Shown here: in pieces, positions 2,875 to 33,152 of the stretch | Numbering within the stretch: the stretch's first letter is position 1 | How the letters are laid out: each line of letters opens with the position of its first letter | Assembly: GCA_026125795.1 (NCBI GenBank) | Contig: JAHCKM010000001.1 | Span: 1,178,001-1,242,000 of the forward strand | DNA: 64,000 bases | From: Burkholderiaceae bacterium | Lineage (GTDB): Bacteria > Pseudomonadota > Gammaproteobacteria > Burkholderiales > Burkholderiaceae_C | Reading direction: 5' to 3' | The notes under the pieces: model-generated | Told to the model about the DNA's origin: nothing | Database searches by the model: none | The model's input: only the letters and a program-made list of their open reading frames with translations | Translations under genes and position numbers: made by a program

Positions 2875-2899
2875 ATCAGCTGCGCTCTGCAATACCCTG

Positions 2900-2945
2900 C
2901 GCCGGCGTGGCGCGGTGCGGCACACCCGGCCGCGGCTTTGCCCTC
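2900..2945. repeat. Fragment of the composite intergenic repeat between padB and padC
   Basis: The padB-padC spacer holds a stretch with the core cacacccggccgcggcttt. The same core ends the large repeat copies at about 24358 and 28222, and appears inverted near 54860. The spacer (2875-2986) otherwise shows no gene. The fragment suggests that pieces of this repeat family settle inside operons. Confidence 0.55.
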
Positions 2946-2986
2946 CTCGGTCCTACGCAAGTTGCGGCCAAAGACGAGCAAACGCC

Positions 2987-3658
2987 ATGACCAAGTGGAC
3001 CATGGTGGCCGACCTCCGGCGCTGCATCGGGTGCCAGACCTGCACCGCCGCGTGCAAGCATGCCAATGCCACGCCGCCGGGCGTGCAGTGGCGGCGCGTG
3101 CTCGACATGGAGTTCGGCGAGTACCCCGACGTGCAGCGCGCGTTCGTGCCGGTGGGCTGCCAGCACTGCGACGACCCGCCGTGTCTGGAGGTGTGCCCGA
3201 CCACCGCGACGAAGAAACGCGCCGACGGCATCGTCACGATCGACTACGACCTGTGCATCGGCTGCGCCTACTGTGCGGTGGCCTGTCCGTACCAGGCGCG
3301 ATACAAGACCGAGCGCCCGACCTTCGCCTACGGCAAGGCGACGGCTGCCGAAGCGCAGCGGCACGACGATGCGCGCATCGGCGTGGCCACCAAGTGCACC
3401 TTCTGCGTCGAGCGCATCGACGCCGGCACTGCCCGGGGGCTGAAGCCGGGCATCGATCCCGAGGCCACGCCGGCCTGCGTCAACTCGTGCATCGCGCAGG
3501 CGCTCGCCTTCGGCGATGCCGACGACCCTGACAGCAACGTGTCGCAGCTGCTGGCGCGGCACGAGCACTTTCGGATGCACGAAGAGCTCGGCACCGGGTC
3601 GAACTTTCACTACCTGTGGGACGAGCGGCGCGACGCGCCGGAACCCGAGGAGACATGA
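2987..3658 (+). CDS. padC: Phenylacetyl-CoA:acceptor oxidoreductase, four-[4Fe-4S] ferredoxin subunit (PadC-like)
   Basis: The 223-residue protein belongs to the DmsB/NrfC/PsrB electron-transfer family. Four Cys groups are visible: CIGCQTC..C from residue 13, C..CDDPPCLEVC near 60, CIGCAYC..C near 95, and a split CTFC...CVNSC group from about 135 to 165. It should relay electrons from the molybdenum subunit to the membrane anchor. ATG 2987 is chosen because it starts directly before the conserved ferredoxin opening; the upstream in-frame extension is repeat-derived. It sits 112 bases after padB and overlaps the next gene by ATGA. Confidence 0.8.
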   Translation: MTKWTMVADLRRCIGCQTCTAACKHANATPPGVQWRRVLDMEFGEYPDVQRAFVPVGCQHCDDPPCLEVCPTTATKKRADGIVTIDYDLCIGCAYCAVACPYQARYKTERPTFAYGKATAAEAQRHDDARIGVATKCTFCVERIDAGTARGLKPGIDPEATPACVNSCIAQALAFGDADDPDSNVSQLLARHEHFRMHEELGTGSNFHYLWDERRDAPEPEET

Positions 3659-4512
3659 TGAGCTTCGGCCCCAACCCGTGGGAGCAGGCGCACTGGGATG
3701 CGCGCGCCGCCGGCAACTTCATCGGCGGCGGCGCGGGCAGCGGCCTGATCGTGGCGGCTGTCGCTGCCGGCGCGAGCGGCAACCTGCGCACGGTGGCGCT
3801 GGCGTTGGCGATGGGGCTCATCGGTGGCGGCCTGCTGTGCGTCTGGGCCGAGATCGGGCGGCCCTGGCGCGCGATCAACGTGCTGTTCAATCCCCGCACG
3901 TCGTGGATGTCGCGTGAGGCGGCGCTGGCGCCGCTCGTGCTGGGCAGCGCGGCGCTGGGGCTGGCGGGTGTGCGCGGTGCGGCCTGGATCGCGGCGCTGG
4001 CGGCGCTCGGTTTCCTCTACTGCCAGGCGCGCATCCTTCACGCGGCGCGCGGCATTCCGGCCTGGCGCGAGCCGCTGACGGTGCCCTTGATCGTGATGTC
4101 GGGCATCGTCGAAGGCGTCGGGCTGTACGCGGCGCTCGCGGTGGGGCTGGGCCGGCCGAGCGCGGCGCTTTGCCTCGGATTGGCCGCGCTGCTGGCGCTG
4201 CGCAGCGGCATCGCGTTCGCATGGCGCGTGCGCGTGGCGCGCCAGCTGCGCGCACCGGCGGCGCTGCGCAGTGCGCTCGTCGCGTCGCGCATCGCCGGAG
4301 CGCTGGCGCTCGGGGTTGCACTGCTCGCCACGCTGAGTCCGCTGTCGAGCGGCTGGGTCGGGGCCACGCAATTGCTGGCCGGCGTGCTCGCGCTGGCCGG
4401 CGGCGCGTGGTTCGAGTTCGTGCTGATCACGCGCTTGGCATTCAACCAGGGCTTCGCGCTGCCGCACCTGCCGGTGCGCGGCGTGCGGCATGAAACGGAA
4501 GTGGCGTCATGA
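3655..4512 (+). CDS. padD: Phenylacetyl-CoA:acceptor oxidoreductase, DmsC-like membrane anchor (PadD-like)
   Basis: The 285-residue protein has about eight hydrophobic segments and few charged loops, as in DmsC/PadD quinol-interacting anchors. It would hold PadBC to the membrane and pass electrons to quinone. A GAGGAG ribosome-binding site precedes two adjacent ATG codons (3655 and 3658), and the start overlaps the padC stop. It is translationally coupled to the ligase downstream through another ATGA overlap. The family is poorly conserved in sequence, so the call relies on topology, size and position after padBC. Confidence 0.7.
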   Translation: MMSFGPNPWEQAHWDARAAGNFIGGGAGSGLIVAAVAAGASGNLRTVALALAMGLIGGGLLCVWAEIGRPWRAINVLFNPRTSWMSREAALAPLVLGSAALGLAGVRGAAWIAALAALGFLYCQARILHAARGIPAWREPLTVPLIVMSGIVEGVGLYAALAVGLGRPSAALCLGLAALLALRSGIAFAWRVRVARQLRAPAALRSALVASRIAGALALGVALLATLSPLSSGWVGATQLLAGVLALAGGAWFEFVLITRLAFNQGFALPHLPVRGVRHETEVAS

Positions 4513-5852
4513 GCGCAGCCGTCGCCGTCCACGACCGCACCGCGCGCCGCACGGTCGGCCTGCACCCCGAGGTGGAGGCGCTGCCGCGCGAGCGGCTCGC
4601 CGCCCTGCAGCTCGAGCGCCTGCGCGAGTCGCTGCGCCGCGCGTGGGAGCAGGTGCCGTGGCAGCGCGAGCGGCTGCAGCGCGCGGGACTGTCCGGCGCA
4701 CAGGACGTGCGCACGCTCGACGATCTGCGCCGCCTGCCATTCACGGTCAAGACCGACCTGCGCGATCACTACCCGTTCGGGCTGTTCGCGTTGCCGGTCG
4801 AGCAACTCGCGCGGCTGCACGCCTCGTCGGGCACCACCGGCAAGCCCACGGTGGTGGGCTACAGCGCGGCCGACCTGAACACCTGGGCCGACCTGATGGC
4901 ACGCACGCTGCACTGCGCCGGCGCGCGGCGCGGCGACATCGTGCACAACGCCTACGGCTATGGCCTGTTCACCGGCGGCCTGGGCATGCACGCCGGCGCC
5001 GAGCGGCTCGGCGCGGTGGTGGTGCCGGCCTCCGGCGGCGGCACCGAGCGTCAGGTGGCGCTGATCATGGATTTTGGTGCGCGCGTGTTGTGCGCGACGC
5101 CGTCGTATGCGCTGGCGATCGCCGAAGTCGCTGAAGCACAGGGCGTCGATCTGCGCCGCAGTGCGCTGCGCGTCGGCCTGTTCGGTGCCGAGCCGTGGAG
5201 CGAGGCGATGCGCCGCGAGATCCAGGCGCGGCTGCCGCTGAAGGCGATCGACAACTACGGCCTGTCGGAGATCATGGGCCCGGGCGTGGCGGTGGAGTGC
5301 GAGCAGCAGGATGGCCTGCACGGCTGGGAGGACCACTTCCTGTTCGAGGTGGTGGATCCCGACACGCAGGCGCCGCTGCCCGACGGCGCGGCCGGCGAGC
5401 TGGTGATCACCACGCTGACCAGGCAGGCGCTGCCGATGCTGCGCTACCGCACGCGCGACATCACGCGGCTCACGCGTGTGCGCTGCGCCTGCGGACGCAC
5501 GCACGCGCGGCTGCTGCGCGTGAGCGGCCGCAACGACGACATGCTGATCGTGCGCGGCGTCAACGTGTTCCCGTCGCAGATCGAGGCGGTGCTGATCGGC
5601 CAGCCGCACCTGGCGCCGCACTACCAGCTGGTGCTGCGCCGGCGCGGCAGCCTGGATCACGTGACGCTGGAGGCCGAGGCGGTGCCCGGCCTGGCGGCGT
5701 TGCAGTACGACGGCGTCGCACGCGAGGTGGCGCACCGCGTCAAGTCGACGGTCGGCATCACGGTTGAGGTGGTGCTGCAAGCGCCCGGCGCGCTGCCGCG
5801 CTCGCAGGGCAAGGCGGTGCGTGTGCGCGACTTGCGCAAAAAAGGGGCTTGA
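4509..5852 (+). CDS. Phenylacetate-CoA ligase-type aryl-CoA ligase
   Basis: The 447-residue adenylate-forming enzyme is of PaaK length. It shows the phosphate loop SSGTTGKPT near residue 115, the NYGLSE motif near 252, the RYRTRD segment near 315 and a VRGVNVFPSQIE hinge near 350. PaaK-type ligases convert phenylacetate or 4-hydroxyphenylacetate plus CoA and ATP to the CoA thioester, the substrate PadB needs. It is coupled by ATGA to padD and lies one base before the hcrC start codon. The product may be phenylacetyl-CoA, 4-hydroxyphenylacetyl-CoA or both; sequence alone cannot decide. Confidence 0.8.
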   Translation: MSAAVAVHDRTARRTVGLHPEVEALPRERLAALQLERLRESLRRAWEQVPWQRERLQRAGLSGAQDVRTLDDLRRLPFTVKTDLRDHYPFGLFALPVEQLARLHASSGTTGKPTVVGYSAADLNTWADLMARTLHCAGARRGDIVHNAYGYGLFTGGLGMHAGAERLGAVVVPASGGGTERQVALIMDFGARVLCATPSYALAIAEVAEAQGVDLRRSALRVGLFGAEPWSEAMRREIQARLPLKAIDNYGLSEIMGPGVAVECEQQDGLHGWEDHFLFEVVDPDTQAPLPDGAAGELVITTLTRQALPMLRYRTRDITRLTRVRCACGRTHARLLRVSGRNDDMLIVRGVNVFPSQIEAVLIGQPHLAPHYQLVLRRRGSLDHVTLEAEAVPGLAALQYDGVAREVAHRVKSTVGITVEVVLQAPGALPRSQGKAVRVRDLRKKGA

Positions 5853-11913: not shown

Positions 11914-12717
11914 ATGAGCGTGGTTGTCACGCCGCTGCTCAGTACCGAGCGCGTTGGAGACGCGCTCCTCGTGACGCTCGAGCGCGCGCCGGTCAACGCG
12001 ATCAACGACGAGTTGCTCGCGCAGCTCGATGCCGTGCTCGACGAGGCCGAGGCTGACGAGCGCATCGCGGTGCTGCACCTGCGCAGCGCACTGCCGGTGT
12101 TCTGCGGCGGTGCCGACCTGGCGCTGATCCGCTCGTGCGTGGCCACACCGCAGGGTCGCAACGAGATGGTGACGATCGTGCAGCGCATGCAGCGCGTGTT
12201 CGCGCGGCTCGAGAACGTCGGTTGCGTGACGCTCGCCGAGCTCGGCGGCGCCACGCTCGGCGGTGGCCTCGAGCTGGCGCTGGCCTGCGACTGGCGCATC
12301 GCGGCTCACGACGTGCGCATCGGCCTGCCCGAGGCGGGGCTCGGCCTGCTGGCTGCCGGTGGCGGCACGCAGCGCCTGACGCGGCTGGTGGGCCCCGGCA
12401 TCGCGCGTCGCCTGATCCTCGGCGCCGAGACGGTCAGCGGCACCGAGGCCGAGCGGCTCGGGCTGGTGCAGTGGTCAGTCCCGGCCGAGCGTCTGGCCGA
12501 CACGGCGCGCGCATTGGCACAGCGCTGCTCCGAGTTGCCGCGTCTGGCGCTGGCCGAGAACAAGCGCTGCATCGCGCTGGCCAGCGCGCCGCACGGCGAC
12601 GGCTTTGCCGCCGAGATCGCTGCCACGCGACGCCTGTACGAACACCCCGAAACCCGGCGCCGCGTGTCGGCCTTTCTCGACAAGCGCGCCTTGCACACGA
12701 CACACGCGAAGGAGTAG
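11914..12717 (+). CDS. Enoyl-CoA hydratase/isomerase family protein
   Basis: The 267-residue crotonase-fold protein has the oxyanion-hole strand FCGGADLALI near residue 63, the LGGATLGGGLELALACD segment near 108 and a PEAGLGLLAAGGGTQRL loop near 137. Members hydrate enoyl-CoA or cleave cyclic keto-acyl-CoA. A strong GGAGG site precedes ATG 11914. Its place between an aryl-CoA ligase and a BadH-like dehydrogenase suggests a step in ring or side-chain beta-oxidation. A BadI-type ring hydrolase is possible, but no decisive motif is visible. Confidence 0.8.
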   Translation: MSVVVTPLLSTERVGDALLVTLERAPVNAINDELLAQLDAVLDEAEADERIAVLHLRSALPVFCGGADLALIRSCVATPQGRNEMVTIVQRMQRVFARLENVGCVTLAELGGATLGGGLELALACDWRIAAHDVRIGLPEAGLGLLAAGGGTQRLTRLVGPGIARRLILGAETVSGTEAERLGLVQWSVPAERLADTARALAQRCSELPRLALAENKRCIALASAPHGDGFAAEIAATRRLYEHPETRRRVSAFLDKRALHTTHAKE

Positions 12718-16248: not shown

Positions 16249-17211
16249 TCAGAGCAGACAGGCCAGCAGCGTGGCCAGCAGTGCCGCCAGCAGGTTGTGC
16301 AACAACGCGGCCGTCAGCGGCAGCACCGGCGTCAGCAACCACAGGCCGGCGGCCAGCTGCAACGACAGCAGCACGAGCAGGGCGATGGCGCTGCCGCGCG
16401 CACCGTGGCGCCACGCCAGCCACGCGGTGGGCAGTGCCGCCAGCAGCACGACCGGTGCCCACGCGCGATGCACGAGCTGCGCCAGCGCGCCGTCGGGGTG
16501 GATCGGCATCTGTGCGGCGGCTTCGAACACCGGCTCGCGCCAGGGGTTCAGCGCCGACCAGGGCCATCCTTGTTGCGCCGCGGTGCGCGCGCAGTCCTGC
16601 AGGCTGCTGCAGCTCAGGTGGGCGAACGATGCGCTCACCAGGCCGCCGAGCACCACCTGGATCGCCACCGCGCCCAACGTGAGGGCCGCGGCGCGCGACA
16701 GCGCGGGCCGTGGCGCGCGGGCCGCGGTGCCGGCGAGCGCCAGACGCGTGCTCAGCGCGAGCATCGCAAAGCCGCCCAGCAGGTTGCCGATCGCCACCGC
16801 GGGCAGTCGCGAGGCGCCGGTGCGCAACCCCAGCATGGCAAGGAACAGCGCGAGCGCGAGCAGGCCGATCGACAGCGCCGCTTCGTCGCGCTGCAACGGC
16901 CTGGCCGTGATCGCGCTCAGCGCCAGCACGATCACCAGCACCAGCACCACCGAGGCCACCACGCGGTGGGCCAGGCGTGCCAGCGCCACGCCTTGCGCAT
17001 CGGCCCCGGATGCGCCGATGCCGTGCTGCTGCTGGCGCAGCGCCTGCCCGTAACACTGGGGCCACGGCGCACAACCGAGACCGGCCTTCGACAGGCGCAA
17101 GTACGCGCTCAACGCCGCGATCAAAAGCACCAGCAGCGCGCACAGCCAAGCGATGCGACGCAGCGTGCGGCGGCGCAGCTGCGACGGCGACAGCGGGCTC
17201 ACGGGCTTCAT
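16249..17211 (-). CDS. ctaA: Heme A synthase, COX15/CtaA family
   Basis: The 320-residue protein has eight predicted membrane helices and the family hallmark near the N-terminus, RLSKAGLGCAPWPQCYG. Heme-ligand histidines appear in ARLAHRVVAS and QLVHRAWAP. It oxidises heme O to heme A (or a related farnesyl heme). It is divergent from the CuA/heme-copper operon, and heme O synthase CtaB lies within that operon, so the terminal reductase here probably uses an A- or O-type heme. This fits oxidases and the eNOR type of NO reductase, and argues against a plain heme-b cNOR. Confidence 0.85.
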   Translation of the reverse strand: MKPVSPLSPSQLRRRTLRRIAWLCALLVLLIAALSAYLRLSKAGLGCAPWPQCYGQALRQQQHGIGASGADAQGVALARLAHRVVASVVLVLVIVLALSAITARPLQRDEAALSIGLLALALFLAMLGLRTGASRLPAVAIGNLLGGFAMLALSTRLALAGTAARAPRPALSRAAALTLGAVAIQVVLGGLVSASFAHLSCSSLQDCARTAAQQGWPWSALNPWREPVFEAAAQMPIHPDGALAQLVHRAWAPVVLLAALPTAWLAWRHGARGSAIALLVLLSLQLAAGLWLLTPVLPLTAALLHNLLAALLATLLACLL

Positions 17212-17336: not shown

Positions 17337-17492
17337 ATGAGCCCACCCGATGCCAGCGACGAACCGGTGCCGTGGATGCAGCAGCTGCTGGACAACCCGT
17401 TCCTGCTGCTGTTCATCGGCGTGATGGTGCCGATGGTGCTCTACACGCTGTGGGGTGTGATCGACATCCTGACGGTGCCGCTGGCCAAGTAG
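17337..17492 (+). CDS. Small single-helix membrane protein of the terminal reductase
   Basis: The 51-residue protein has one hydrophobic helix (about residues 21-45) after an acidic amphipathic N-terminus. A GAGGAG site precedes ATG 17337. It directly precedes the CuA and heme-copper subunits and is probably an accessory subunit, like the small helices of ba3- and cbb3-type enzymes. No family name can be given from sequence alone. Confidence 0.7.
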   Translation: MSPPDASDEPVPWMQQLLDNPFLLLFIGVMVPMVLYTLWGVIDILTVPLAK

Positions 17493-17535: not shown

Positions 17536-18075
17536 ATGAGCGCCATCCTGCCGCCATCGGAACGACTGTGGTGGAAACACCCGCTCGATCGCGTCGAAGG
17601 GACGTGGATCGCGATCGCATTGGTGTGGTGCCTGATCATGTTTTTCATGATGATCGGCTGGCACATCTACGGCAAGCAGAACCTCTCCACCGAGACCTAC
17701 AAGACCACGCCGGAGAAGTTCACCGCCAAGGCGCAGGCGGTGGTCGACAAGTACACGGTGCGCACCGAGACCGCCGACAAGACGCCGGTGGTGGCTCCGC
17801 CGCCGGGCAGCGACGTCTACATGATCGCGCGGCTGTGGAGCTTCTGGCCGATCCTGGAGCTGGAGAAGGACAAGACCTACCGGCTGCACCTGACATCGCT
17901 GGACTACAACCACGGCTTCTCGCTGCAGCCGGCCAACATCAACATCCAGGTCGTGCCCGGCTACGAGCACGTGGTCACCGTGACACCCAACCAGTCGGGC
18001 ACGTACTCGGTGGTGTGCAACGAATACTGCGGCATCAACCATCACACGATGGTCGGCCGCGTCTACGTCAAGTGA
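17536..18075 (+). CDS. CuA-containing subunit II of a heme-copper reductase
   Basis: The 179-residue protein has a single N-terminal helix (about residues 25-45) and a cupredoxin domain. The CuA ligands are complete: an early His in YNHGFSL near 133 and the cluster CNEYCGINHHTM near 160 (C-x3-C-x3-H-x2-M). It takes electrons from a soluble donor such as a c-type cytochrome and passes them to subunit I. The short length and single helix resemble ba3/B-family or CuA-type NO reductases rather than the two-helix mitochondrial type. It precedes subunit I by about ten bases. Confidence 0.85.
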   Translation: MSAILPPSERLWWKHPLDRVEGTWIAIALVWCLIMFFMMIGWHIYGKQNLSTETYKTTPEKFTAKAQAVVDKYTVRTETADKTPVVAPPPGSDVYMIARLWSFWPILELEKDKTYRLHLTSLDYNHGFSLQPANINIQVVPGYEHVVTVTPNQSGTYSVVCNEYCGINHHTMVGRVYVK

Positions 18076-18085
18076 GGAGGGCAGC

Positions 18086-19813
18086 ATGACGGCCACGCTT
18101 CCGGTGCCCGCCTCGGCGCGTGGCACCACCTATCGCACCTGCCCGCGCTCGGGCCTGCAGTTCGAGGCCAGCGCCGAGCGCCTGATGATCGCCAACGCGG
18201 TGGTGGCCGTGGTGGCGCTGCTGGTGGGCGGCGTGCTGGCCGTCGGCGTGGTGCTGACGCGCTGGCCCGCGATCCACTGGCTCGAGGCCGACACCTTCTA
18301 CATGGTGCTGACGGCCCACGGCATCGACATGCTGATCTTCTGGATCATCTTCTTCGAGGTGGCGGTGCTGTACTTCTGCTCCTCCACGCTGCTGCGCTGC
18401 CGGCTGGCCACGCCCAACGTGGCCTGGCTGGCGTTCGCGCTGATGCTGATCGGCGCCGTCACCAACAACGTGGCGGTGTTCCAGGGCGGCTCCAGCGTGA
18501 TGATGACGTCGTACGTGCCGATGATGGCGCAGCCGTCGTTCTACCTCGGGCTGATCCTGTTCGCGGTGGGCGCGCTGATCGCCTGCTTCGTGTTCTTCGG
18601 CACGCTGGTGATCGCCAAGCGCGACAAGACCTACACCGGCTCGGTGCCGCTGGTCACCTTCGGCGCCATCACCGCGGCCATCATCGCGGTGTTCACCATC
18701 GCCTCCGGCGCGATCATCCTGATCCCGACGTTCCTGATGTCGGTGGGCTGGATTGCTTCAGTCGACCCGCTGATGTACCGCACCATCTGGTGGGCCTTCG
18801 GCCACTCGTCGCAGCAGATCAACGTGGCCGCGCACATCTCCATCTGGTACGCGGTGGCGGCCATCGCGTTCGGCGCCGCGCCGATGAGCGAGCGCGTCAG
18901 CCGCGGCGCCTTCCTGCTGTACATCCTGTTCCTGCAGCTGGCGAGCGCGCACCACCTGCTGGCCGACCCGGGCCTGTCCACCGGCTGGAAGGTCGTCAAC
19001 ACCAGCTACTTCATGTACTTTGCAGTGCTGGCCTCGATGATCCACGGCCTGACCATCCCCGGTGCGATCGAGGTCGCGCAGCGCAAGAAGGGCCTCAACA
19101 AGGGCCTGTTCGAGTGGCTGCGCAAGGCGCCGTGGGGCAACCCGGTGTTCAGCGGCATGTTCATCGCGCTGATCGGCTTCGGCTTCCTGGGCGGCATCTC
19201 GGGCGTGATGATGGGCACCGAGCAGCTCAACATGATCATCCACAACACCATCTACGTGCCGGGGCATTTCCACGCCACCGTGGTGGTGGGCACCACGCTG
19301 TCGTTCATGGCGCTGACCTACTTCCTGATTCCGGTGCTGTTCAAGCGCGAGATGATCAACCCGGGCCTGGCCAAGATCCAGCCGTACCTGTTCGGGCTGT
19401 CGATGTACTTCTTCTGCCTGGTGATGATGGGCGCCGGCACGCTCGGCGTCTCGCGGCGCCACTGGGACATGGCCTTCAGCGGCAACGCGCTGGCCTACGA
19501 CTGGCCGGGCGCGGCCTATCTGATGCTGGGGCTGATGGGTGTGGCCGGCGTCGTGGCCATCGTCGGCGGTGCGATCTACATCTACATCACGGTGGGCTCG
19601 CTGCTGTGGGGCAAGCCGCTGGCCGCCGGCGAGAAGAGCCCGCACTTCACGCCGATTCCCGTGACGGCGCCGACCCGGGTGGTCCAGAGCTACGGCTCGA
19701 TGGGCTTCGCGGCGCCGGGCACTTTCGTGCTGGCCATGGTGTTCCTGGTGGCGTTCGTTCTCTACTACTTCATCAACTGGAAGTACCTGTCCCAGGTGTG
19801 GGGCCTGAGCTGA
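18086..19813 (+). CDS. Heme-copper reductase subunit I, tyrosine-less; probable eNOR-type nitric oxide reductase
   Basis: The 575-residue multi-helix protein has all six metal-binding His of the superfamily: H78 (low-spin heme), H240, H289 and H290 (CuB site), and H394/H396 in VPGHFH. The helix VI motif reads GHSSQQINV instead of GHPEVY, so Gln244 stands where oxidases have the cross-linked Tyr. No compensating Tyr is evident. Loss of that Tyr marks NO-reducing branches of the superfamily, including eNOR-type enzymes that pair with CuA subunits and use A-type heme. No norB/norC occurs in the window, while nirS, nnrS and dnr do. NO reduction is therefore the best guess; an unusual oxidase is the alternative. 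Confidence 0.75.
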   Translation: MTATLPVPASARGTTYRTCPRSGLQFEASAERLMIANAVVAVVALLVGGVLAVGVVLTRWPAIHWLEADTFYMVLTAHGIDMLIFWIIFFEVAVLYFCSSTLLRCRLATPNVAWLAFALMLIGAVTNNVAVFQGGSSVMMTSYVPMMAQPSFYLGLILFAVGALIACFVFFGTLVIAKRDKTYTGSVPLVTFGAITAAIIAVFTIASGAIILIPTFLMSVGWIASVDPLMYRTIWWAFGHSSQQINVAAHISIWYAVAAIAFGAAPMSERVSRGAFLLYILFLQLASAHHLLADPGLSTGWKVVNTSYFMYFAVLASMIHGLTIPGAIEVAQRKKGLNKGLFEWLRKAPWGNPVFSGMFIALIGFGFLGGISGVMMGTEQLNMIIHNTIYVPGHFHATVVVGTTLSFMALTYFLIPVLFKREMINPGLAKIQPYLFGLSMYFFCLVMMGAGTLGVSRRHWDMAFSGNALAYDWPGAAYLMLGLMGVAGVVAIVGGAIYIYITVGSLLWGKPLAAGEKSPHFTPIPVTAPTRVVQSYGSMGFAAPGTFVLAMVFLVAFVLYYFINWKYLSQVWGLS

Positions 19814-19963: not shown

Positions 19964-20857
19964 ATGAACACCATTGCTGCATCACATCGGCAATCCGTGC
20001 GCTTCGCGCGCGACGTGCTCGGGCTGTTCAAGCTGCGCATCGGCGTGATGATCATGGTCACTGCGCTGGTGGGTCTGGTGGTCACACCGGGCGCTGCGCT
20101 GAGCGCCGGTCAGGTGATCGTGCTGGCGCTGTCGGTGCTGATCGCCTCGGCCAGTGCCGGTGCCTACAACCAGTACTTCGAGCACGACCTTGATCAGCTG
20201 ATGCGGCGCACGCGCAGCCGCGCGTTCGTCACCGGGGCGCTGCCGCACACGCCGGCGTGGTTGCTGCTGATCGTCGCGCTGCTGGCCGGCGCGGTGGGCG
20301 CGGCGTGGTGGACCCTCAACGCAACGTCGGCACTGTTCGTCTTTCTCGGCGCGTTCTTCTACGCGGTGGTCTACACCGTGTGGCTCAAACGGCGCAGCTG
20401 GCTCAACATCGTCGTTGGGGGCCTGGCGGGCAGCTTTGCGGTTCTGGCCGGCGCGGCGGCGGTGGATCCGACGCCGGGGCCGCTGCCGCTGCTGCTGGCG
20501 CTGGTGCTGTTCCTGTGGACGCCGCCGCACTTCTGGAGCCTGGCCATCGCCAACCGCGCCGACTACGCCGCCGCGGGCGTGCCGATGCTGCCGGTGGTGG
20601 TGGGCGAGGCGCGCGCGGCGCGTGTGGTGCTGCACAGCACCGTGGCGCTGGTGGCGGTGTCGTTGCTGCCGGCGGGGTTCGGCGCCGGGCCGATCTACCT
20701 CGCCGGTGCGGCCGCCGGCGGCCTGTATTTCATCGTCAAGGCGGCGCAACTTGCGCGCGCGCCGGGCCGGCTGACCGCGATGCGTGCGTTCTTCGCGTCG
20801 CTGGTGCAATTGAGCGCGCTGCTGGTGGCGGCCACCGTCGACGGGTTGTTGCGATGA
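19964..20857 (+). CDS. ctaB: Protoheme IX farnesyltransferase (heme O synthase)
   Basis: The 297-residue UbiA-superfamily protein has about nine helices. The Asp-rich motif appears as YNQYFEHDLDQLMRRT near residue 67 and the second conserved loop as YTVWLKRRS near 130. It adds a farnesyl group to heme B, giving heme O, the substrate of CtaA. Its place between subunit I and the SCO gene shows that this operon makes its own farnesylated heme. The first Asp-rich motif has His-Asp where many members have Glu/Asp variants, but spacing is normal. It overlaps the SCO gene by ATGA. Confidence 0.85.
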   Translation: MNTIAASHRQSVRFARDVLGLFKLRIGVMIMVTALVGLVVTPGAALSAGQVIVLALSVLIASASAGAYNQYFEHDLDQLMRRTRSRAFVTGALPHTPAWLLLIVALLAGAVGAAWWTLNATSALFVFLGAFFYAVVYTVWLKRRSWLNIVVGGLAGSFAVLAGAAAVDPTPGPLPLLLALVLFLWTPPHFWSLAIANRADYAAAGVPMLPVVVGEARAARVVLHSTVALVAVSLLPAGFGAGPIYLAGAAAGGLYFIVKAAQLARAPGRLTAMRAFFASLVQLSALLVAATVDGLLR

Positions 20858-21693
20858 ACCTGCGTTTCTTCGCGCTGTGCCTGAGCGCATTGGCCGCCAG
20901 CGCACCGGCGCAGGACGCGGCCGTCAAGCTCGACGCGCAGGCGGCGCTGCGCGACAGCCAGGCCGCGGTGGGCCGCACCATCGCCGACCATGTGCTGCTC
21001 GATCGCCGTGAAAGCGCGGTGCCGCTGTCGCGCTTTCGCGGCAAGCCGCTGCTGGTGAGCTTCATCTACACCGGCTGCTTCCAGATCTGCCCCACAACCA
21101 CGCGCTCGCTGTCCGACGCGGTGGCCCGCCTGAGCGAGGACTTTGGCGCCGACACGTTCAACGTGGTCAGCATCGGCTTCAACCAGCCGTTCGATTCGCC
21201 GCAGGCGATGCGCACGTTCGCAAAGACGATGCGCATCGATGCGCCCAACTGGGAGTTCCTCAGCCCGCCGCTGCCGGCGGTGCAGGCGCTGACCGACGAC
21301 TTCGGCTTTCGCTACGTCGCCACGCCGGCCGGCTTCGACCACGTGCTGACGGTGTCGGTGGTGGATGCCGAGGGCAAGCTGGTGCAGCAGGTGTACGGCG
21401 AGCAGTTCGCGCGCGAGCAGCTCGGCGAGCCGTTGCGGCGCCTGCTGCGCAACGCGCCGCTCAAGCGCGACGCGCCGCTGGCCGACCTGATCGAACGCGT
21501 GCGCATCATCTGCACCGTCTACGATCCCGAGACCGGCACCTACCGCTTCAAGTACGGCCTGCTGATCGAGATCGCCGGCGGCGTCACCTTCCTCGCGGCG
21601 ATGGTGTGGTTCTTTGCGCTCGAGTGGCGCACCCGCCGGCGCCTGCGCCGCCCGCCCGGCGCGACACGGCCGACGCTGGCGCGGGCTGAATAA
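20854..21693 (+). CDS. SCO1/SenC-type copper chaperone with C-terminal membrane helix
   Basis: The 279-residue protein starts with a signal peptide (cleavage near residue 20). It has a thioredoxin-fold SCO domain with the copper motif CFQICP near 76 and the ligand His in FDHVLTVSV near 167. It delivers copper to the CuA site of subunit II. Unlike most SCO proteins, a membrane helix follows the domain (about residues 232-252), so it is probably held by its C-terminus. It is coupled to ctaB. Confidence 0.85.
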   Translation: MNLRFFALCLSALAASAPAQDAAVKLDAQAALRDSQAAVGRTIADHVLLDRRESAVPLSRFRGKPLLVSFIYTGCFQICPTTTRSLSDAVARLSEDFGADTFNVVSIGFNQPFDSPQAMRTFAKTMRIDAPNWEFLSPPLPAVQALTDDFGFRYVATPAGFDHVLTVSVVDAEGKLVQQVYGEQFAREQLGEPLRRLLRNAPLKRDAPLADLIERVRIICTVYDPETGTYRFKYGLLIEIAGGVTFLAAMVWFFALEWRTRRRLRRPPGATRPTLARAE

Positions 21694-21736: not shown

Positions 21737-23287
21737 ATGCAACCGGCCCGCGCGCTGCGCCTCGCCTCGCTCGCCGTGTGGCAACGAGCGGAACACGCCT
21801 TCGATGCGATCTTCGGCGCGCCGGGCAACCCCTGGCGGCAGCTCGGCGCGCTCGGCTTCCTGCTGTTGTGGCTGCTGGTGGCCAGCGGCATCGTCCTGTA
21901 CGCGGTGCTCGACACCTCGGCCACCGGCGCCTGGCAGTCGATCGACGCGCTGTCGCGCCAGCAGCCGGTCCTGGGCGGCCTGCTGCGCAGCCTGCACCGC
22001 TATGCCGCCGATGCCCTGGTGCTCGTGACGCTGGCGCATCTGCTGCGCGAGGCGCTGCACGGCCGCTACGCGCACTTTCGCCGCTTCTCGTGGTGGACCG
22101 GCGTGCCGCTGCTGGCGCTGGTGTTCGTCTGCGCCGTGGGCGGCTTCTGGCTCAACTGGGACCAGCTCGGCCAGTACTCGGCGCTGGCCACCGCCGAGTG
22201 GATCGACGCGTTGCCGCTGCTGGCCGCTCCGGTGACGCGCAACTTCATCGACGTGGCAGCGGTCAGCGACCGCCTGTTCTCGCTGTTGGTGTTCGTGCAC
22301 CTGGGCGTGCCGCTGCTGCTGGTGTTCGGGCTGTGGTTCCACATCCAGCGCATCAGCCGGGCCGCCGTGTTTCCCACGCGCGCGCTGGCGCTGGGCACGG
22401 TGATCGCATTGCTGGCGCTGGCCTGGGCGGCGCCGGTGATGAGCCATGCGCCGGCCGATCTGACGCGCGAGCCCGCGACGCTGGCGCTCGACTGGATCGT
22501 GCTCGCCGTGCACCCGCTGACGCGCGCGCTCGGTGCCGGCCCGATGTGGCTGTTGCTGGCCGCCGCGCTGGCCTGGCTGCTGGTACTGCCGTGGCTGCGC
22601 CAGCCGCGACAAGCGCCGGTGGCGGTGGTGGATCCGGCCAACTGCAACGGCTGCCGGCGCTGCTTCGACGATTGTCCGTATGCCGCGGTGACGATGGTCG
22701 CGCACCCGGCCAAACGTCTGCGTCAGATGGCGCAGGTGGACGCCGACCTGTGCGCCAGCTGCGGCATCTGCGTGGGCGCGTGTCCCTCGTCGACACCGTT
22801 TCGCAGCGCCGCCGCGCTGGTGACCGGCATCGACATGCCCGCGCAGCCGATCGGCGTGCTGCGCCGGCAGCTGCAGCAGGCGCTGGCCGCGATGGATGCG
22901 GCCGCGCCGCGCTTCGTCGCCTTCGGATGCGACTGCGGCGCGCACGTGGCGTCGATCGCGGCGCCCGACGTGGCGGTGTTCAGCCTGGTGTGCACCGGCC
23001 AGCTGCCGCCGTCGTTCGTCGAGTACGCGTTGCGCGATGGGGCCGACGGCGTGCTCGTCGCGGCCTGCCAGGGTTGCGAGTTCCGGCTCGGCGCGCGATG
23101 GATCGCCGAGCGTCTCGGCGGCGCGCGCGAGCCGCACCTGCGCACGAACGTGCCGCGCGAGCGCTTCCTGCTGACAGGCGCCGATGCCGGCCAGGAGCCG
23201 GTGCTGCTGGCGGCTCTGGCCACGCTGCGGCACAGGCATCGGAGCGTCGACCGATCGATTTCACCGACGGCGGCCGCCCATGAATGA
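21737..23287 (+). CDS. Cytochrome b / 2[4Fe-4S] ferredoxin / MvhD-like fusion oxidoreductase
   Basis: The 516-residue protein joins three modules. Residues 1-290 are a cytochrome b N-terminal domain with four or more helices and two bis-His heme pairs of canonical spacing (H87/H101 and H188/H202). Residues 300-350 are a two-cluster ferredoxin (C303, C306, C309, C313; C339, C342, C345, C349). Residues 390-490 resemble the MvhD/FrhD delta subunit of methanogen hydrogenase-heterodisulfide reductase complexes (C398, C400, C419, C444, C447 and a GADGVLVAACQGC motif). MvhD proteins bind a [2Fe-2S] cluster and connect to flavin-based bifurcating partners. The layout suggests transfer between a soluble low-potential carrier and quinone. 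The partner is unknown. Confidence 0.75.
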   Translation: MQPARALRLASLAVWQRAEHAFDAIFGAPGNPWRQLGALGFLLLWLLVASGIVLYAVLDTSATGAWQSIDALSRQQPVLGGLLRSLHRYAADALVLVTLAHLLREALHGRYAHFRRFSWWTGVPLLALVFVCAVGGFWLNWDQLGQYSALATAEWIDALPLLAAPVTRNFIDVAAVSDRLFSLLVFVHLGVPLLLVFGLWFHIQRISRAAVFPTRALALGTVIALLALAWAAPVMSHAPADLTREPATLALDWIVLAVHPLTRALGAGPMWLLLAAALAWLLVLPWLRQPRQAPVAVVDPANCNGCRRCFDDCPYAAVTMVAHPAKRLRQMAQVDADLCASCGICVGACPSSTPFRSAAALVTGIDMPAQPIGVLRRQLQQALAAMDAAAPRFVAFGCDCGAHVASIAAPDVAVFSLVCTGQLPPSFVEYALRDGADGVLVAACQGCEFRLGARWIAERLGGAREPHLRTNVPRERFLLTGADAGQEPVLLAALATLRHRHRSVDRSISPTAAAHE

Positions 23288-23798
23288 GCACGCGCGCACC
23301 GGCGCCGCGTCGTGGCTCGGCCAGGCGCTGCTGTACGGCTTGTTCGCGGCGGTGATCGGCGTGTTCTCCCGCTGGCCGCCGTACCAGCACCTCGCGCCCG
23401 ATCAGGCGCTGCTCAAGCTGAGCTTCAGCCAACCCGGCAAGCCGGTGTCGGAGTGCCGCCGCGCCACCGAAGAGGAGCTGGCCAAGCTGCCGCCCAACAT
23501 GCGCGCGCCGATGCGTTGTCCGCGCGAACGTTCGCCGATCACGGTGGAGGTCGACGTCGACGGTCGCGCCGCGCTGCGCCACGTGGCACGGCCGAGCGGC
23601 CTGTCGCGCGACGGTGCGTCGGCGGTCTATCGGCGCATGGAGCTCGCGGCCGGCGCGCACCACATCGCCGTGCGCTTGAACGACGACGTGCGCGTCAGCG
23701 GCTTCAACCACACGCGCGAGGACACGGTGACGCTGCAGCCGGCGCAGATCCTGGTGATCGATTTCGACCCCGAGAGAGGCGGGATCACGTTGAGGTGA
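23280..23798 (+). CDS. Membrane-anchored hypothetical protein
   Basis: The 172-residue protein has one N-terminal hydrophobic segment (about residues 11-30) followed by a mostly beta-type soluble region with three Cys. Its start overlaps the stop of the cytochrome b-MvhD fusion, so the two are coupled and may form a complex. No family is recognised. The soluble part probably faces the periplasm, judging by the charge distribution around the helix, but this is uncertain. Confidence 0.6.
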   Translation: MNEHARTGAASWLGQALLYGLFAAVIGVFSRWPPYQHLAPDQALLKLSFSQPGKPVSECRRATEEELAKLPPNMRAPMRCPRERSPITVEVDVDGRAALRHVARPSGLSRDGASAVYRRMELAAGAHHIAVRLNDDVRVSGFNHTREDTVTLQPAQILVIDFDPERGGITLR

Positions 23799-23823: not shown

Positions 23824-24360
23824 TGCGCGGCGCGGCGGGCGGTACCCGGGGAGGGCTCCTACTGGGTCGGTCGGCGCTGCGCGCCGACTGCGCTGTGGTG
23901 CTCGCTCCGAGAGGGCGGCTGCGATGCCGCTCGCAGCGGCCCTGAACGGGCCACTGCTTCATGGCTTCTCGCCGGTCCGTCGCCTGCGGCGCCGGACTTC
24001 CCCTCTCTGCGCTGCGCTCCTCGCCGCCCCACAAGTCGCCCACCCCGGATACCGCCCACCGCGCAGAAACGCTCGTGGTGTTCCTGCAGGAATACCTCAG
24101 TGGTGCGGCAAAGCCGTGGTCGGGTGTGCGCCGGCAGCGACATCTGCGGCGCCGAGGACCGCAGAGCGCATGGCCGCGCGCGCGCAGCGCGCGCTTCAAC
24201 ATCTGACTCGCGTCGATTGTTCGAGCGTAGCGAACGCAGTGAGCGAAGCGAGTTTCGACGCGGGCCAGGCGATCGAGGACCGCAGGGGAGTCGGCCGCAG
24301 GCCGACCGCCGCAGCCGAGCGCCGGCGCACACCCGGCCGCGGCTTTGCTCTCTCATTGTT
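23824..24360. repeat. Composite intergenic repeat, copy A
   Basis: This long noncoding stretch fills the 611-base gap between the anchored protein and the heme-copper-like gene. It begins with a GC-rich block around ggcgggcggtacccgg and ends with cacccggccgcggctttgct. Inside are several short inverted repeats (CGGCGCTGCGCGCCG; GCCGCGCGCGCGCAGCGCGCGC; GTCGGCCGCAGGCCGAC). Most of it recurs in direct orientation at 27801-28224 and inverted at 54857-55527. Reading frames in it are open in several phases, as expected from composition, and none resembles a known protein. No transposase or clear target duplication is seen. Confidence 0.75.
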
Positions 24361-24409
24361 GAAGGCCAAGCAATGTCGGGCGATCTCTACGCTGTGGTGA
24401 GGTGCTGAG

Positions 24410-25846
24410 ATGAACACGTTCAATCCCGCATTGCCAGGCGCGTCGCGCGCCCACCAGCAGGCCGCGACTTCGACGCCCGCGCACTACACGCTCGACGTGC
24501 CGCACGGCCTGCAGCGCCAGCTGGCGCGTTGCTGGTTGTGGCTGGGTCTGGCGGCGCTGATCGGCTCGGGCCTGTTCTCGGTGCTGCTGGTGCTGGCGCG
24601 CACGCCGGGCGTGAACCGCTGGCTGCCGGTGTCCGATTTCTTTCGCGTCGCGCTGGTGGTGCACGTCGACTTGTCGGTGCTGGTGTGGTTCATCGCGATG
24701 GCGGGCCTGTTGTGGAGCCTCAACAGCGCGCCGCGCGGTCGCATTGGCGGTTGGGCGGCGCCGCTGCTGTGTGGTGCCGGCGCGCTGGGGATGTCGATCG
24801 CGCCGTTCGTTGACCACGGCGCGGCCGTCATGGCCAACTACATCCCGGTGCTCGATGGGGCGGTGTTCCTTGGCGGCTTGGTGGTGTTTGCGCTCGGCGT
24901 CGGCGTGCTGGTGTGGCGCGGCCTGGTGCTGGCGCCCAAGCTCGGGCTCGCGTTCGATGGCGGTGGCGCGTTGCGCTTCGGGTTGAATGCCAGCGTGGTC
25001 GCCACCGCGGTGGCGCTGCTTGCATTCGCGTGGTCGTGGCTCGCGCTGCCCACCGAGTTGGCCGGGCGCGCGTACTACGAGATCCTGTTCTGGGGCGGCG
25101 GGCATGCGCTGCAGTTCACCTGGACCTTGCTGATGCTGGTGGCCTGGCTGTGGCTGGCCAGCGCCAGCGGCGCGCCGGTGCGCCTGAGCCCGCGCGTGGC
25201 GGTGGCGATGTTCGGCCTGGCATTGCTGGCGGTGTTCGTGACGCCGTATGCCTACGTGTCCCACGACATCGCCTCGGTCGAGCACCGCAACCTGCTCACC
25301 TGGGCGATGCGCGCCGGCGGCGGGCCGGCCATCGTGCCGATCGGCCTGGCCGTGCTGCTGGCGCTGCGCCAGGCCCCCGCCACATCGGTCAGCCCGACGA
25401 CGCGACCGCTGCGCTCGGCGCTGGTGGCTTCAGTGCTGCTGTTCGCCGCCGGCGGGATGATCGGCGTGTTCATCCAGGGCAGCAACGTGCGCATCCCGGC
25501 GCACTATCACGGCTGCATCGTGGGCGTGACGCTGGCGCTGATGGGGCTGGTGTTCCATCTGCTGCCGCGTCTGGGCTATCGCGCACCGACGTCGCGCTGG
25601 GCCGCCTGGCAGCCCGCGCTGTACGGTGCCGGTCAACTGATGCACATCGTCGGCCTGGTGTGGTCGGGCGGTTATGGCGTGCAGCGCAAGGTGGCCGGCA
25701 GCGAGCAGGTGCTGCGCAGCGGCGCCGAGATCGCCGGCATGGGGCTGATGGGCCTGGGTGGGCTGATCGCCATCGCGGGTGGGCTGCTGTTCGTGCTGGT
25801 GGTGTGGCGCGCGATGCGTGGCGCACCCCATGCCGACCCGCGGTGA
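24410..25846 (+). CDS. Divergent heme-copper oxidase/NO reductase-like membrane protein
   Basis: The 478-residue multi-helix protein follows the subunit I plan: H85 in a helix (VVHVDLSVLVWF), H232 in helix VI (WGGGHALQF), and H365/H367 in RIPAHYHG as heme ligands. Neither the Tyr nor the Glu of oxidase helix VI is present; the residue four after H232 is Phe. The His-His pair expected after helix VII is absent, with only H285 (SHD) and H292 (EHR) nearby. The CuB site may be changed or lost. It directly precedes the cytochrome b-FNR fusion (4-base gap), which is probably its partner. It could be a divergent NO reductase or a pure heme electron-transfer subunit. Confidence 0.65.
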   Translation: MNTFNPALPGASRAHQQAATSTPAHYTLDVPHGLQRQLARCWLWLGLAALIGSGLFSVLLVLARTPGVNRWLPVSDFFRVALVVHVDLSVLVWFIAMAGLLWSLNSAPRGRIGGWAAPLLCGAGALGMSIAPFVDHGAAVMANYIPVLDGAVFLGGLVVFALGVGVLVWRGLVLAPKLGLAFDGGGALRFGLNASVVATAVALLAFAWSWLALPTELAGRAYYEILFWGGGHALQFTWTLLMLVAWLWLASASGAPVRLSPRVAVAMFGLALLAVFVTPYAYVSHDIASVEHRNLLTWAMRAGGGPAIVPIGLAVLLALRQAPATSVSPTTRPLRSALVASVLLFAAGGMIGVFIQGSNVRIPAHYHGCIVGVTLALMGLVFHLLPRLGYRAPTSRWAAWQPALYGAGQLMHIVGLVWSGGYGVQRKVAGSEQVLRSGAEIAGMGLMGLGGLIAIAGGLLFVLVVWRAMRGAPHADPR

Positions 25847-25850
25847 ACGC

Positions 25851-27764
25851 ATGATCCACCGCCTGCAAGCGCTGCTGCAGCAGTCGTTCCTGCGCGTCGA
25901 GGGTGTCTTCAACCGCGCCTTCGGCGACCGGCTCAACCCGCTGTACCACCTGGGCTCGATCAGCTTCTACCTGTTCTGGCTGGTGGCCGGTAGCGGCCTG
26001 TACCTGTATGCCTTCTTCGAGACCGGCGTCGCGGATGCGTATGCCTCGGTCGACGCGCTCACGCACCGCCAGTGGTTTGCCGGTGGCGTGCTGCGCAGCG
26101 TGCACCGCTATGCATCCGACGCGATGGTGCTGACGATGCTGCTGCACATGCTGCGCCACTTCGCGTTCGACCGCCTGCGCGGCTTTCGCTGGTTCTCGTG
26201 GGTCAGCGGCGTGGCGCTGGTGTGGGGCGTGTACGTCTCGGGCATCAACGGCTACATGCTGCCGTGGGACAGGCTGGCGCAGTTCGTCATCGTGGCGAGC
26301 TTCGAGTGGCTCGACTGGCTGCCCGGATTCGGCGGCACGCTGGTGCGCAACTTCATCTACGCCGACAGCGTCAACGACCGCTTCTTCTCGCTGCTGGCGT
26401 TCATGCACATCGGCATCCCGCTGGTGGTGCTGCTGTTGATGTGGGTGCACGTGCAGCGCGTGCCCAAGGCCCGCACCAATCCGCCGCGCCCCTTGATGTG
26501 GAGCGTGGCGCTCACGCTGCTCGTCGCGGCGGCCGCAGCGCCGGTGGCGAGCCAGGGCGGCGCGGCGCAGCTCGAGCGTGCCGTGACCGACGTGCGGCTC
26601 GACTGGTTCTACCTGCTGGTGTTCCCGCTGCTGTACCAGTGGCCGCTCGGCGCCGTGTGGGCGCTGCTCGGCGGTGCCACCGCCGCGCTGGTGTTGTTGC
26701 CGTGGCTGCCGCCCAGGTTGCGGCGCGGCGCGCTGCCGTCGCATCGCATGGAGGTGCACGGCCACGCCGGGCCGATCACCGCGCGCGCCGGCGAGTCGTT
26801 GCTCGAAGCCGGCCTGCGCGCCGGCGCGGCACTGCCGTACGAATGCCGCAACGGCGGCTGCGGCGTGTGCCGCTGCACCGTGCTGCACGGCCGCGTCGAC
26901 CACGGCCCGTACCAGCACAGCGCCCTCAGCGACGCGCAGCGCGCACGCGGACAGACGCTGGCGTGCTGCGCCACGGCGTTGAGCGACCTGGAGATCGAGT
27001 TCGAGGCGCCGCTTTGTGCGCCGCTCGCGACGCGACTGCACCGCGCGATCGTCGAGCGCATGGACCGCCTGGCCCCGGAGGTGATGCGCCTCACGCTCGT
27101 GCTGCCCGACGAAGAGCCGATGGCCTTCGTGGCCGGGCAATACATCCACATCGTGCTGCCCGATGGTCAGCGGCGCGCCTTCTCGTTTGCCAATCCGCCG
27201 CACGACAACACGCGCATCGAGCTGCACGTGCGCCGCATTCCGGGCGGGCGTTTCACCGGCCATGTCTTCACGCAGATGCAGGCCGGCGACGAACTGCACT
27301 TCGAGGGGCCACTCGGCAGCTTCCGGCTCAACGACAGCGATGCACCGATCCTGATGGTGGCGGGCGCCACCGGTTTCGCGCCCATCAAGAGCATCGTCGA
27401 GGACGCCTTCCACCGCGGCATCCGCCGCCCGATCTGGCTGTATTGGGGCGTGCGCCGCCGCGCCGACCTGTACATGCTGGAGCTCGCGCTGCAGTGGCAG
27501 TCGCAGCACCCGAACTTCCAGGTGGTTCCCGTGCTGTCCGAAGCGACGGCGGAGGACGCATGGACCGGCCGGCGCGGCCTGGTGCACGAGGCGATGCTCG
27601 CGGACTTTCCAGACCTGCGCGGACACGAGGTCTATGTCTGCGGCTCGGTGAAGATGGTGGACGCGGCGGTGCCGGCTTTCGTCGCCCAGGGCCTGAGCGA
27701 AGACGCGTGCTTCTCGGATGCGTTCTTGCCGGTGATGGGGAGTGCGGTTGCGTCGGCTGTCTGA
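25851..27764 (+). CDS. Cytochrome b / [2Fe-2S] ferredoxin / FNR fusion reductase
   Basis: The 637-residue protein has a cytochrome b N-terminal domain (residues 1-290) with bis-His pairs H85/H99 and H186/H200. Its helix layout matches the fusion at 21737. A plant-type [2Fe-2S] domain follows (C332, C337, C340 and a Cys at 372/373), then an FAD/NAD(P) reductase domain (about 395-637) with RRAFSFANPP, VAGATGFAPIKS and YVCGSVKMVD. It could move electrons between NAD(P)H and quinone or heme across the membrane. ATG 25851 is used; an earlier in-frame ATG lies inside the upstream gene. The reductase part resembles AscD/phenol hydroxylase reductase types. Confidence 0.8.
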   Translation: MIHRLQALLQQSFLRVEGVFNRAFGDRLNPLYHLGSISFYLFWLVAGSGLYLYAFFETGVADAYASVDALTHRQWFAGGVLRSVHRYASDAMVLTMLLHMLRHFAFDRLRGFRWFSWVSGVALVWGVYVSGINGYMLPWDRLAQFVIVASFEWLDWLPGFGGTLVRNFIYADSVNDRFFSLLAFMHIGIPLVVLLLMWVHVQRVPKARTNPPRPLMWSVALTLLVAAAAAPVASQGGAAQLERAVTDVRLDWFYLLVFPLLYQWPLGAVWALLGGATAALVLLPWLPPRLRRGALPSHRMEVHGHAGPITARAGESLLEAGLRAGAALPYECRNGGCGVCRCTVLHGRVDHGPYQHSALSDAQRARGQTLACCATALSDLEIEFEAPLCAPLATRLHRAIVERMDRLAPEVMRLTLVLPDEEPMAFVAGQYIHIVLPDGQRRAFSFANPPHDNTRIELHVRRIPGGRFTGHVFTQMQAGDELHFEGPLGSFRLNDSDAPILMVAGATGFAPIKSIVEDAFHRGIRRPIWLYWGVRRRADLYMLELALQWQSQHPNFQVVPVLSEATAEDAWTGRRGLVHEAMLADFPDLRGHEVYVCGSVKMVDAAVPAFVAQGLSEDACFSDAFLPVMGSAVASAV

Positions 27765-27800: not shown

Positions 27801-28224
27801 TGCGGCGCGGCGGGCGGTACCCGGTATCGGCTCCTACTGGGTCGGTCGGCGCTGCGCGCCGACTTCGCTGCGATGCTCAGAGGACAAGGGCGGCTGCGAT
27901 GCCGCTCGCAAGCGGCGCTCCCGCGCCGCTGCTTCATGGCTTCTCGCCGGTCCGGCCCTGGCGGGCCGGACTTCCCCTTGCCCTCTTGCGCTTCTCGCCG
28001 CCCCACAAGTCGCCGACACCGGATACCGCCCACCGCGCAGAGACGCTCGTGGTGCTGCTCGAAGAAGACCTCGGTGCATCGGCAAGGCCGTGGTCGGGTG
28101 TGCGCCGGCAGCAACATTGTGCGGCGCCGAGCACCGCAGAGCGCATGGGAGTCCGGCCCGCAGGGCCGACCGCTGCACACGAGCGCCGGCGCATACCCGG
28201 CCGCGGCTTTGCTCGCTCACTGTC
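27801..28224. repeat. Composite intergenic repeat, copy B
   Basis: The spacer 27765-28258 between the cytochrome b-FNR gene and livF is filled by a second direct copy of the repeat at 23824. It has the same left end (GGTACC palindrome, then ctcctactgggtcggtcggc) and the same right end (ccggccgcggctttgct). It is about 110 bases shorter because the middle block with the TCGAGCGTAGCGAACG-type segment is missing. No gene is seen in this spacer. Confidence 0.75.
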
Positions 28225-28258
28225 GATCAAGTGTCGTGCGTCGACACGAAGCGCGCAG

Positions 28259-31022: not shown

Positions 31023-32822
<1,800 letters not shown>

Positions 32823-32823
<1 letters not shown>

Positions 32824-33152
32824 TGAAGCGCACGTTGACTCGCTCCTGGCTGCTGGCGGCCGGGGTGGTGCTCGTCCCGTACGCGGCGGCGGCCAACCCC
32901 GCGGCGGAGGCGGCGATGAACAAGGCCGGCTGCATGGCCTGCCACAGCAAGGACAAGAAGCTGGTCGGGCCGTCGTTCAAGGAGATCGCGGCCAAGTACA
33001 AAGGGCAAGCCGACGTCCCGACCAAGCTGGCGGAAAAAGTCCGCAAGGGCGGCAGCGGCGTGTACGGACCGGTGCCGATGTCGCCCAACCCGCCGGACAA
33101 GATCGGCGACAAGGAGCTGAAAGAGGCGATCGAGCTGATCCTGAAGTCGTGA
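32823..33152 (+). CDS. nirM: Cytochrome c551-type electron donor
   Basis: The 109-residue protein has a signal peptide (to about residue 23), then CMACH near 37 and a Met ligand in PVPMSPNP near 85, as in class I cytochromes c551/c5. It is the likely periplasmic donor for NirS and perhaps also for the CuA subunit at 17536. It starts by ATGA overlap with nirS, and its stop overlaps the GTG start of the next gene. Confidence 0.9.

Follow-up and report, generated by a model that had tools for sequence, protein, structure and literature searches.

A cytochrome b fused to a ferredoxin-FlpD head as genomic partner of a predicted eNOR-type nitric oxide reductase

In a 64,000-nucleotide stretch of a Burkholderiaceae genome (assembly GCA_026125795.1, contig JAHCKM010000001.1, positions 1,178,001 to 1,242,000; hereafter the window), one gene encodes a cytochrome b that continues into two [4Fe-4S] motifs and a FlpD/MvhD domain. 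This gene, here called cytbFM, is the sixth gene of a conserved heme-copper operon that also encodes a predicted nitric oxide (NO) reductase of the eNOR type. The genomic partnership of the two is well supported: in two genome samples combined, 49/52 eNOR genomes have cytbFM and 49/54 cytbFM carriers have eNOR. The best explanation, to which an even chance is given, is that cytbFM is a bc-type cytochrome b module which lacks a Rieske protein, can bear different cytoplasmic heads and supports NO respiration by carrying electrons between donors in the cytoplasm and the quinone pool.

An earlier note on this DNA had read the protein as a new membrane entry point by which low-potential electrons, for example from ferredoxin reduced during aromatic degradation, reach quinone in a denitrifier. 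That interpretation is supported in part. It overlooked the eNOR partner (together with NirS), the NAD(P)H-headed sister protein of the same operon, and the fact that the host genome has no FlpD domain other than that of cytbFM.

Architecture of the fusion protein

The bis-heme cytochrome b, the 2[4Fe-4S] ferredoxin and the Cys-rich domain noticed earlier in one chain were all recovered by Pfam above cut-off. Cytochrome_B covers residues 33-205 (2e-16), the Fer4_7 dicluster residues 302-351 (4e-8) and FlpD/MvhD residues 410-488 (5.5e-9). The identification of the last domain as MvhD-type holds: it scores 36.5 bits where the cut-off is 22.3, and this region aligns to solved MvhD chains. The best NCBIfam match of the head is to the C-terminal part of HdrA2 (8.5e-18), which lies far below the cut-off of that model.

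Sixteen ligand residues are each invariant in 79/79 aligned relatives, i.e., those with a near-full open reading frame (ORF) among 80 loci. These loci are the best 80 of 568 confirmed relatives, and the neighbourhood counts given below lean to close kin. The four heme histidines, H87/H101/H188/H202, lie on helices B and D and predict two b hemes. The [4Fe-4S] cysteines are C303/306/309/313 and C339/342/345/349, and those of the FlpD/MvhD domain are C398/419/444/447, which we take to be cluster ligands in MvhD. The GADGVLVAACQGC motif is there too; its Cx2C spacing is unusual, since a simple pattern search found Cx4C in 77/79 relatives. These domains and ligands are observed directly; occupancy by the corresponding cofactors is predicted.

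Residues 217-289 match b6f subunit 4 (2.4e-5 at best) and, less strongly, the C-terminal half of cytochrome b. Within them, D252-W253 is invariant and aligns on the E-W of PEWY, the quinol-site motif; the Pro and Tyr on either side of that pair are not kept. PEWY-type Qo motifs, including their second residue, vary among bc complexes according to PMC9162462. The fold of the membrane part resembles quinol-oxidising cytochrome b, which makes a link to quinone reasonable; the ferredoxin-to-quinone direction proposed in the earlier note is possible. By homology to cytochrome b, the head would sit on the cytoplasmic side, the chain leaving the membrane after the subunit-IV-like part.

Genomic company of the fusion: eNOR, a sister protein and NirS

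The operon runs in the order 51-amino-acid (aa) peptide, CuA subunit II, subunit I, heme O synthase, SCO, cytbFM, the membrane-anchored protein anch172, the heme-copper-oxidase-like protein hco2 and the paralogue cytbBenC (Table 1). On the contigs of the relatives, neighbours were sought with the window genes, plus Pfam on chosen flanking ORFs. The heme-copper context had been recognised before, with cytbFM placed behind the operon; it lies inside, since eNOR subunit I is upstream in 60/60 loci with more than 5 kb of upstream sequence. SCO directly precedes cytbFM in 75/77 loci with room, and anch172 follows it immediately in 74/76. Of the conserved partners considered in the earlier note, anch172 was thus found, and an HdrA in the operon was not; nor does the operon encode a hydrogenase. 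On a Defluviimonas plasmid, the gene order is identical as far as anch172; cytbFM is annotated there merely as "cytochrome b N-terminal domain-containing protein".

Subunits I and II are assigned from their residues to the eNOR type, and NO reductase activity is predicted. At the position of the active-site Tyr of oxygen reductases, subunit I has a Gln (Q244) in 69/69 rows (68 relatives and the window, 5/73 matches at 45% identity or below having been dropped), the residue diagnostic of eNOR according to PMC8756737. The CuB and heme histidines (H240, H289, H290, H394, H396) are likewise kept in 69/69 rows, and the CuA ligands of subunit II (H126, C161, E163, C165, H169, M172) in 77/77. The closest solved chain to subunit I is 7deg_A, named cytochrome c oxidase subunit I, followed by ba3-type chains. 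Subunit II adjoins subunit I in 66/80 loci, the remaining 14 beginning downstream of subunit II. The enzyme family itself is already known: eNOR reduces NO to N2O and is listed as biochemically characterised in PMC11388526.

The two samples comprised 300 genomes of the same order and 398 of Pseudomonadota, so that sampling stays within this phylum. Full-length cytbFM occurs in 21/300 same-order genomes, host included, which is far beyond chance. In the same set, eNOR is present in 23 genomes and hco2 in 24 (all 23 with eNOR among them); 21 genomes have the NAD(P)H-headed form, 20 of these with eNOR. The Fisher tests of the analysis take no account of relatedness. The phylum set contains cytbFM in 34 genomes and eNOR in 30; at most three candidates were scored per genome there, so that a missing BenC-headed form is no proof of absence. 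Three eNOR genomes have no cytbFM: G022 and G100 both carry the NAD(P)H-headed paralogue, and in G367 the contig stops just after SCO. Five cytbFM genomes have no eNOR match (G416, G432, G440, G515, G560). Four of them show operon pieces or nirS beside cytbFM, and G432 shows only anch172.

The sister protein cytbBenC joins a cytochrome b part, 43% identical to that of cytbFM, to a BenC-like [2Fe-2S]-FAD-NAD head. Its heme histidines, Asp-Trp pair and four [2Fe-2S] cysteines are kept in at least 95% of 71 rows, and its domains suggest an NAD(P)H dehydrogenase of the membrane with an uncommon architecture. In a midpoint-rooted tree of a subsample of 61, the NAD(P)H-headed form is a single clade (support 0.993). 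Each form was found without the other in some genomes. Four genomes of one family, f79 (L212, L213, L214, L215), carry two tandem FlpD-headed genes, with no NAD(P)H-headed form detected nearby; two of these genomes gave an eNOR match, 49% identical to the eNOR of the window. Since each form occurs alone and anch172 accompanies either, cytochrome b and anch172 appear as the core and the head as the variable part.

A second association concerns NirS, whose presence in the window agrees with the host being a denitrifier, as earlier supposed. Cytochrom_D1 (E <= 1e-60) was found in 48/56 genomes with eNOR or cytbFM, and in 34/34 of those of good quality, against 14/60 same-order genomes lacking both, taken by handle number. 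Within the order alone, the figures are 21/22 and 14/60. The model, PF02239, presumably also covers NirN and NirF, so that a match is no proof of NirS. Against this link, Cytochrom_D1 is absent from the four f79 genomes with tandem fusions, which are 69-88% complete. In loci L203, L205 and L210, cytbFM and anch172 stand outside the eNOR operon, beside nirS, and in G332, G343 and G371 they are on a different contig from eNOR. Their occurrence away from the operon indicates that the link with eNOR is more than shared position.

Electron route and alternative roles

Operon, co-occurrence and head exchange are observed directly; the donor, the direction of flow, the use of quinone and any contact with eNOR or anch172 are inferred. 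The membrane part of cytbFM would hold hemes bL and bH and the Asp-Trp variant of the quinol site, and its cytoplasmic head would carry 2[4Fe-4S] and an MvhD-type [2Fe-2S] cluster. The head would take electrons from a low-potential cytoplasmic iron-sulfur donor and pass them via bH to quinone, a direction that should be favoured thermodynamically. The quinol would then feed eNOR at its CuA by way of bc1 and cytochrome c. Direct contact of cytbFM with CuA is possible. Through its BenC-like head, cytbBenC would do likewise from NAD(P)H, and anch172 would be a periplasmic subunit common to both. That electrons enter from the cytoplasm is argued most strongly by head exchange, because the family to which BenC-like heads belong consists of NAD(P)H reductases. 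A wider formulation is tentative and clearly less probable: a Rieske-free bc-type class with one cytochrome b core, a beta-sandwich subunit and exchangeable heads, which would be an obligate eNOR partner wiring cytoplasmic reductant into NO reduction on the periplasmic side, possibly in one supercomplex.

Several points weigh against the quinone module. We know of no activity, spectrum or complex for cytbFM. No Rieske or c1/f gene was found among the operon genes, so that the operon itself does not explain an electron path to CuA, and neither window genes nor Pfam on the chosen flanking ORFs revealed a ferredoxin or soluble oxidoreductase gene as conserved neighbour. Cytochrome c alone may suffice for eNOR, and the host has a Rieske-bc1 operon (on another contig, read by eye). 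In the order set, hco2 is present in 23/23 eNOR genomes and cytbFM in 21; as other operon genes are equally constant, co-occurrence alone does not single out cytbFM.

The company of ctaA, ctaB and SCO, all assembly factors, suits a role in maturation, which stays a serious rival for this reason, if one of low probability. In this role, electrons from cytbFM would serve the assembly of eNOR, e.g., Cu(II) reduction for loading of SCO, CuA or CuB, or heme A synthesis, much as CcoG serves the maturation of cbb3 oxidase. The position right after SCO, the ctaB gene in the operon and the frequent nearness of ctaA agree with it, as do the near-constant presence with eNOR and the iron-sulfur reductase heads on the cytoplasmic side, suited to metal or cofactor reduction. 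However, at the three loci beside nirS cytbFM and anch172 are separated from ctaB and SCO, inspection of anch172 by eye showed no metal-binding motif, and the two-heme b core, with Asp-Trp kept at the quinol-site position and two different heads, resembles a bioenergetic module. No CcoG model appeared for cytbFM in the Pfam matches or among the best 25 of 47 NCBIfam rows.

Electrons might also flow in reverse, which we consider unlikely. Quinol would be oxidised at the Asp-Trp site on the p-side, the CuA of eNOR possibly replacing the Rieske protein, and the low-potential electron would travel via bL and bH to the cytoplasmic head. The invariant Asp-Trp at the place of PEWY favours this, as does a CuA subunit in an operon without Rieske gene. 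Reduction of ferredoxin or NAD+ by quinol is, however, strongly uphill. A moderate-potential acceptor would be needed and none was identified, and the host retains its standard Rieske-bc1 operon.

Slightly less probable still is a bc-like heterodimer of cytbFM and cytbBenC, with electrons crossing between the NAD(P)H and FlpD heads over the bL hemes. As bc complexes are dimers, the presence of two paralogues per operon, or of a tandem pair of FlpD-headed genes in genomes in which no NAD(P)H-headed form was detected, fits such a pairing; that either form is present without the other in some genomes does not. Entry of ferredoxin from aromatic degradation independently of NO reduction, as in the earlier note, is very improbable: the MvhD-type head and quinone-type cytochrome b would allow it, and two genes 9-17 kb upstream of cytbFM in the window encode an AMP-binding protein like phenylacetate-CoA ligase (4509-5852) and an enoyl-CoA hydratase (11914-12717), but cytbFM is conserved in company with eNOR and NirS-family proteins, and none of the conserved operon members is an aromatic gene; the wider flanks of the relatives were covered by samples.

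Neighbouring genes, related systems and significance

Table 1. Features of the window around the eNOR operon.
Feature	Position	Strand	Basis
ctaA/COX15 heme A synthase family gene	16249..17211	-	Pfam COX15-CtaA 3e-35; divergent from operon, upstream
51-aa peptide, single-transmembrane-like, first operon gene	17337..17492	+	from sequence
eNOR subunit II (predicted), CuA cupredoxin	17536..18075	+	Pfam COX2 1.2e-6
eNOR subunit I (predicted), heme-copper catalytic subunit	18086..19813	+	Pfam COX1 9.3e-62
ctaB/cyoE heme O synthase	19964..20857	+	TIGR01473 over cut-off
SCO1/SenC copper chaperone	20854..21693	+	Pfam SCO1-SenC 3.3e-12
cytbFM, cytochrome b + 2[4Fe-4S] + FlpD/MvhD fusion	21737..23287	+	516 aa, ATG start
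Subunit-IV/cytochrome b C-terminal-like part of cytbFM (residues 217-289)	22385..22603	+	b6f subunit 4 profile, 2.4e-5 best
Two 4Fe-4S motifs of cytbFM (C303-C349)	22643..22783	+	Fer4_7 match; invariant 79/79
FlpD/MvhD cysteines of cytbFM (C398-C447)	22928..23077	+	profile, invariance, MvhD alignment
anch172, 172-aa membrane-anchored beta-sandwich protein	23280..23798	+	AlphaFold2 model, pLDDT 94.6
hco2, degenerate heme-copper-oxidase-like protein	24410..25846	+	Pfam COX1 4.1e-11
cytbBenC, paralogue with same cytochrome b and BenC-like [2Fe-2S]-FAD-NAD head	25851..27764	+	Pfam/NCBIfam
nirS, cytochrome cd1 nitrite reductase	31105..32823	+	Pfam Cytochrom_D1 6.3e-150 and cytochrome c domain
Small c-type cytochrome adjoining nirS	32823..33152	+	Pfam Cytochrom_C 1.2e-6

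At the start of the operon, a homologue of the 51-aa peptide, which has no Pfam match, immediately precedes subunit II in 63/80 loci, and a ctaA homologue is found at 44/80. The anch172 protein, built of one transmembrane helix and a beta-sandwich, has no Pfam or NCBIfam match over cut-off. In hco2, H85, H232, Q235, H365 and H367 are retained in 74/74 rows; with positions assigned by eye, a Phe occupies the Tyr position in 73/74 and the presumed helix-VII His pair is not kept, which makes a second NO reductase doubtful. It has no NCBIfam match, sequence comparison with the PDB gave nothing up to E 0.1, and it may form a family of its own. A relative, 39% identical, is present without eNOR in G145. 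A 1067-aa ORF in G022 that looked like an hco2-cytbBenC fusion was rejected, hco2 being separate and the surplus length overlying ctaB and SCO in other frames. The hco2-cytbBenC pair is flanked by an intergenic repeat (23827-24362 and 27802-28226), the two stretches of which match at 84-91% over four pieces; it may mark a mobile element or a site of recombination.

The nirS gene of the window is the sole full Cytochrom_D1 match of the host genome, the other being a 75-position fragment (1.2e-6), and several other carriers likewise show one match. NirF and NirN have roles in heme d1 synthesis; this search of the host genome gave no NirF- or NirN-like second copy, so heme d1 synthesis is unexplained. 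By motifs read by eye, the host has two aa3-like oxidases, one cbb3 oxidase and a qNOR-like gene. Nothing over cut-off was found for NosZ with model TIGR04244, so that the host probably releases N2O. Far upstream, three genes in 139-4512 encode a molybdopterin oxidoreductase, a 4Fe-4S ferredoxin-like protein and a possible membrane anchor, the last having no Pfam match.

Among known systems, the upstream genes share with eNOR (Gln-type, B-family-related, with a CuA subunit) the Gln, the tested His ligands and the CuA site. The passages on eNOR that were searched say nothing of the cytochrome b modules; the main eNOR study lies outside that search and may describe them. With bc1/b6f cytochrome b, cytbFM has in common the fold, the four heme His and the subunit-IV-like continuation, which has an Asp-Trp at the place of the Qo motif, but its operon has no Rieske or c1 gene and its chain continues into a cytoplasmic iron-sulfur head. 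The order of 2[4Fe-4S] and a four-Cys FlpD domain is that of MvhD and the C-terminal ferredoxin-FlpD module of HdrA2; in cytbFM it is fused to a membrane cytochrome b, and the operon encodes neither a hydrogenase nor an Hdr subunit (HdrA was not searched genome-wide). The cytbBenC head is that of BenC/MmoC-type reductases, but is fused to cytochrome b and does not serve an oxygenase. Table A3 of PMC8756737 lists one ORF, RME88945.1, in which cytochrome b6, DMSO-reductase-beta-like iron-sulfur and FlpD domains occur together; the entries of that table have a C1 cytochrome domain in addition, unlike cytbFM.

No paper tying the cytbFM fusion to an NO reductase was found in the literature searched, which did not include the main eNOR study, so novelty is not claimed; nor did that literature yield anything on electron supply to eNOR in these bacteria. 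The partnership suggests an unstudied electron route in NO respiration. A near-constant eNOR partner with two alternative heads for electron entry offers a directly testable answer to how eNOR is fed. The fusion also extends the bc-type cytochromes b by one that has no Rieske protein, and improves the annotation of these genes.
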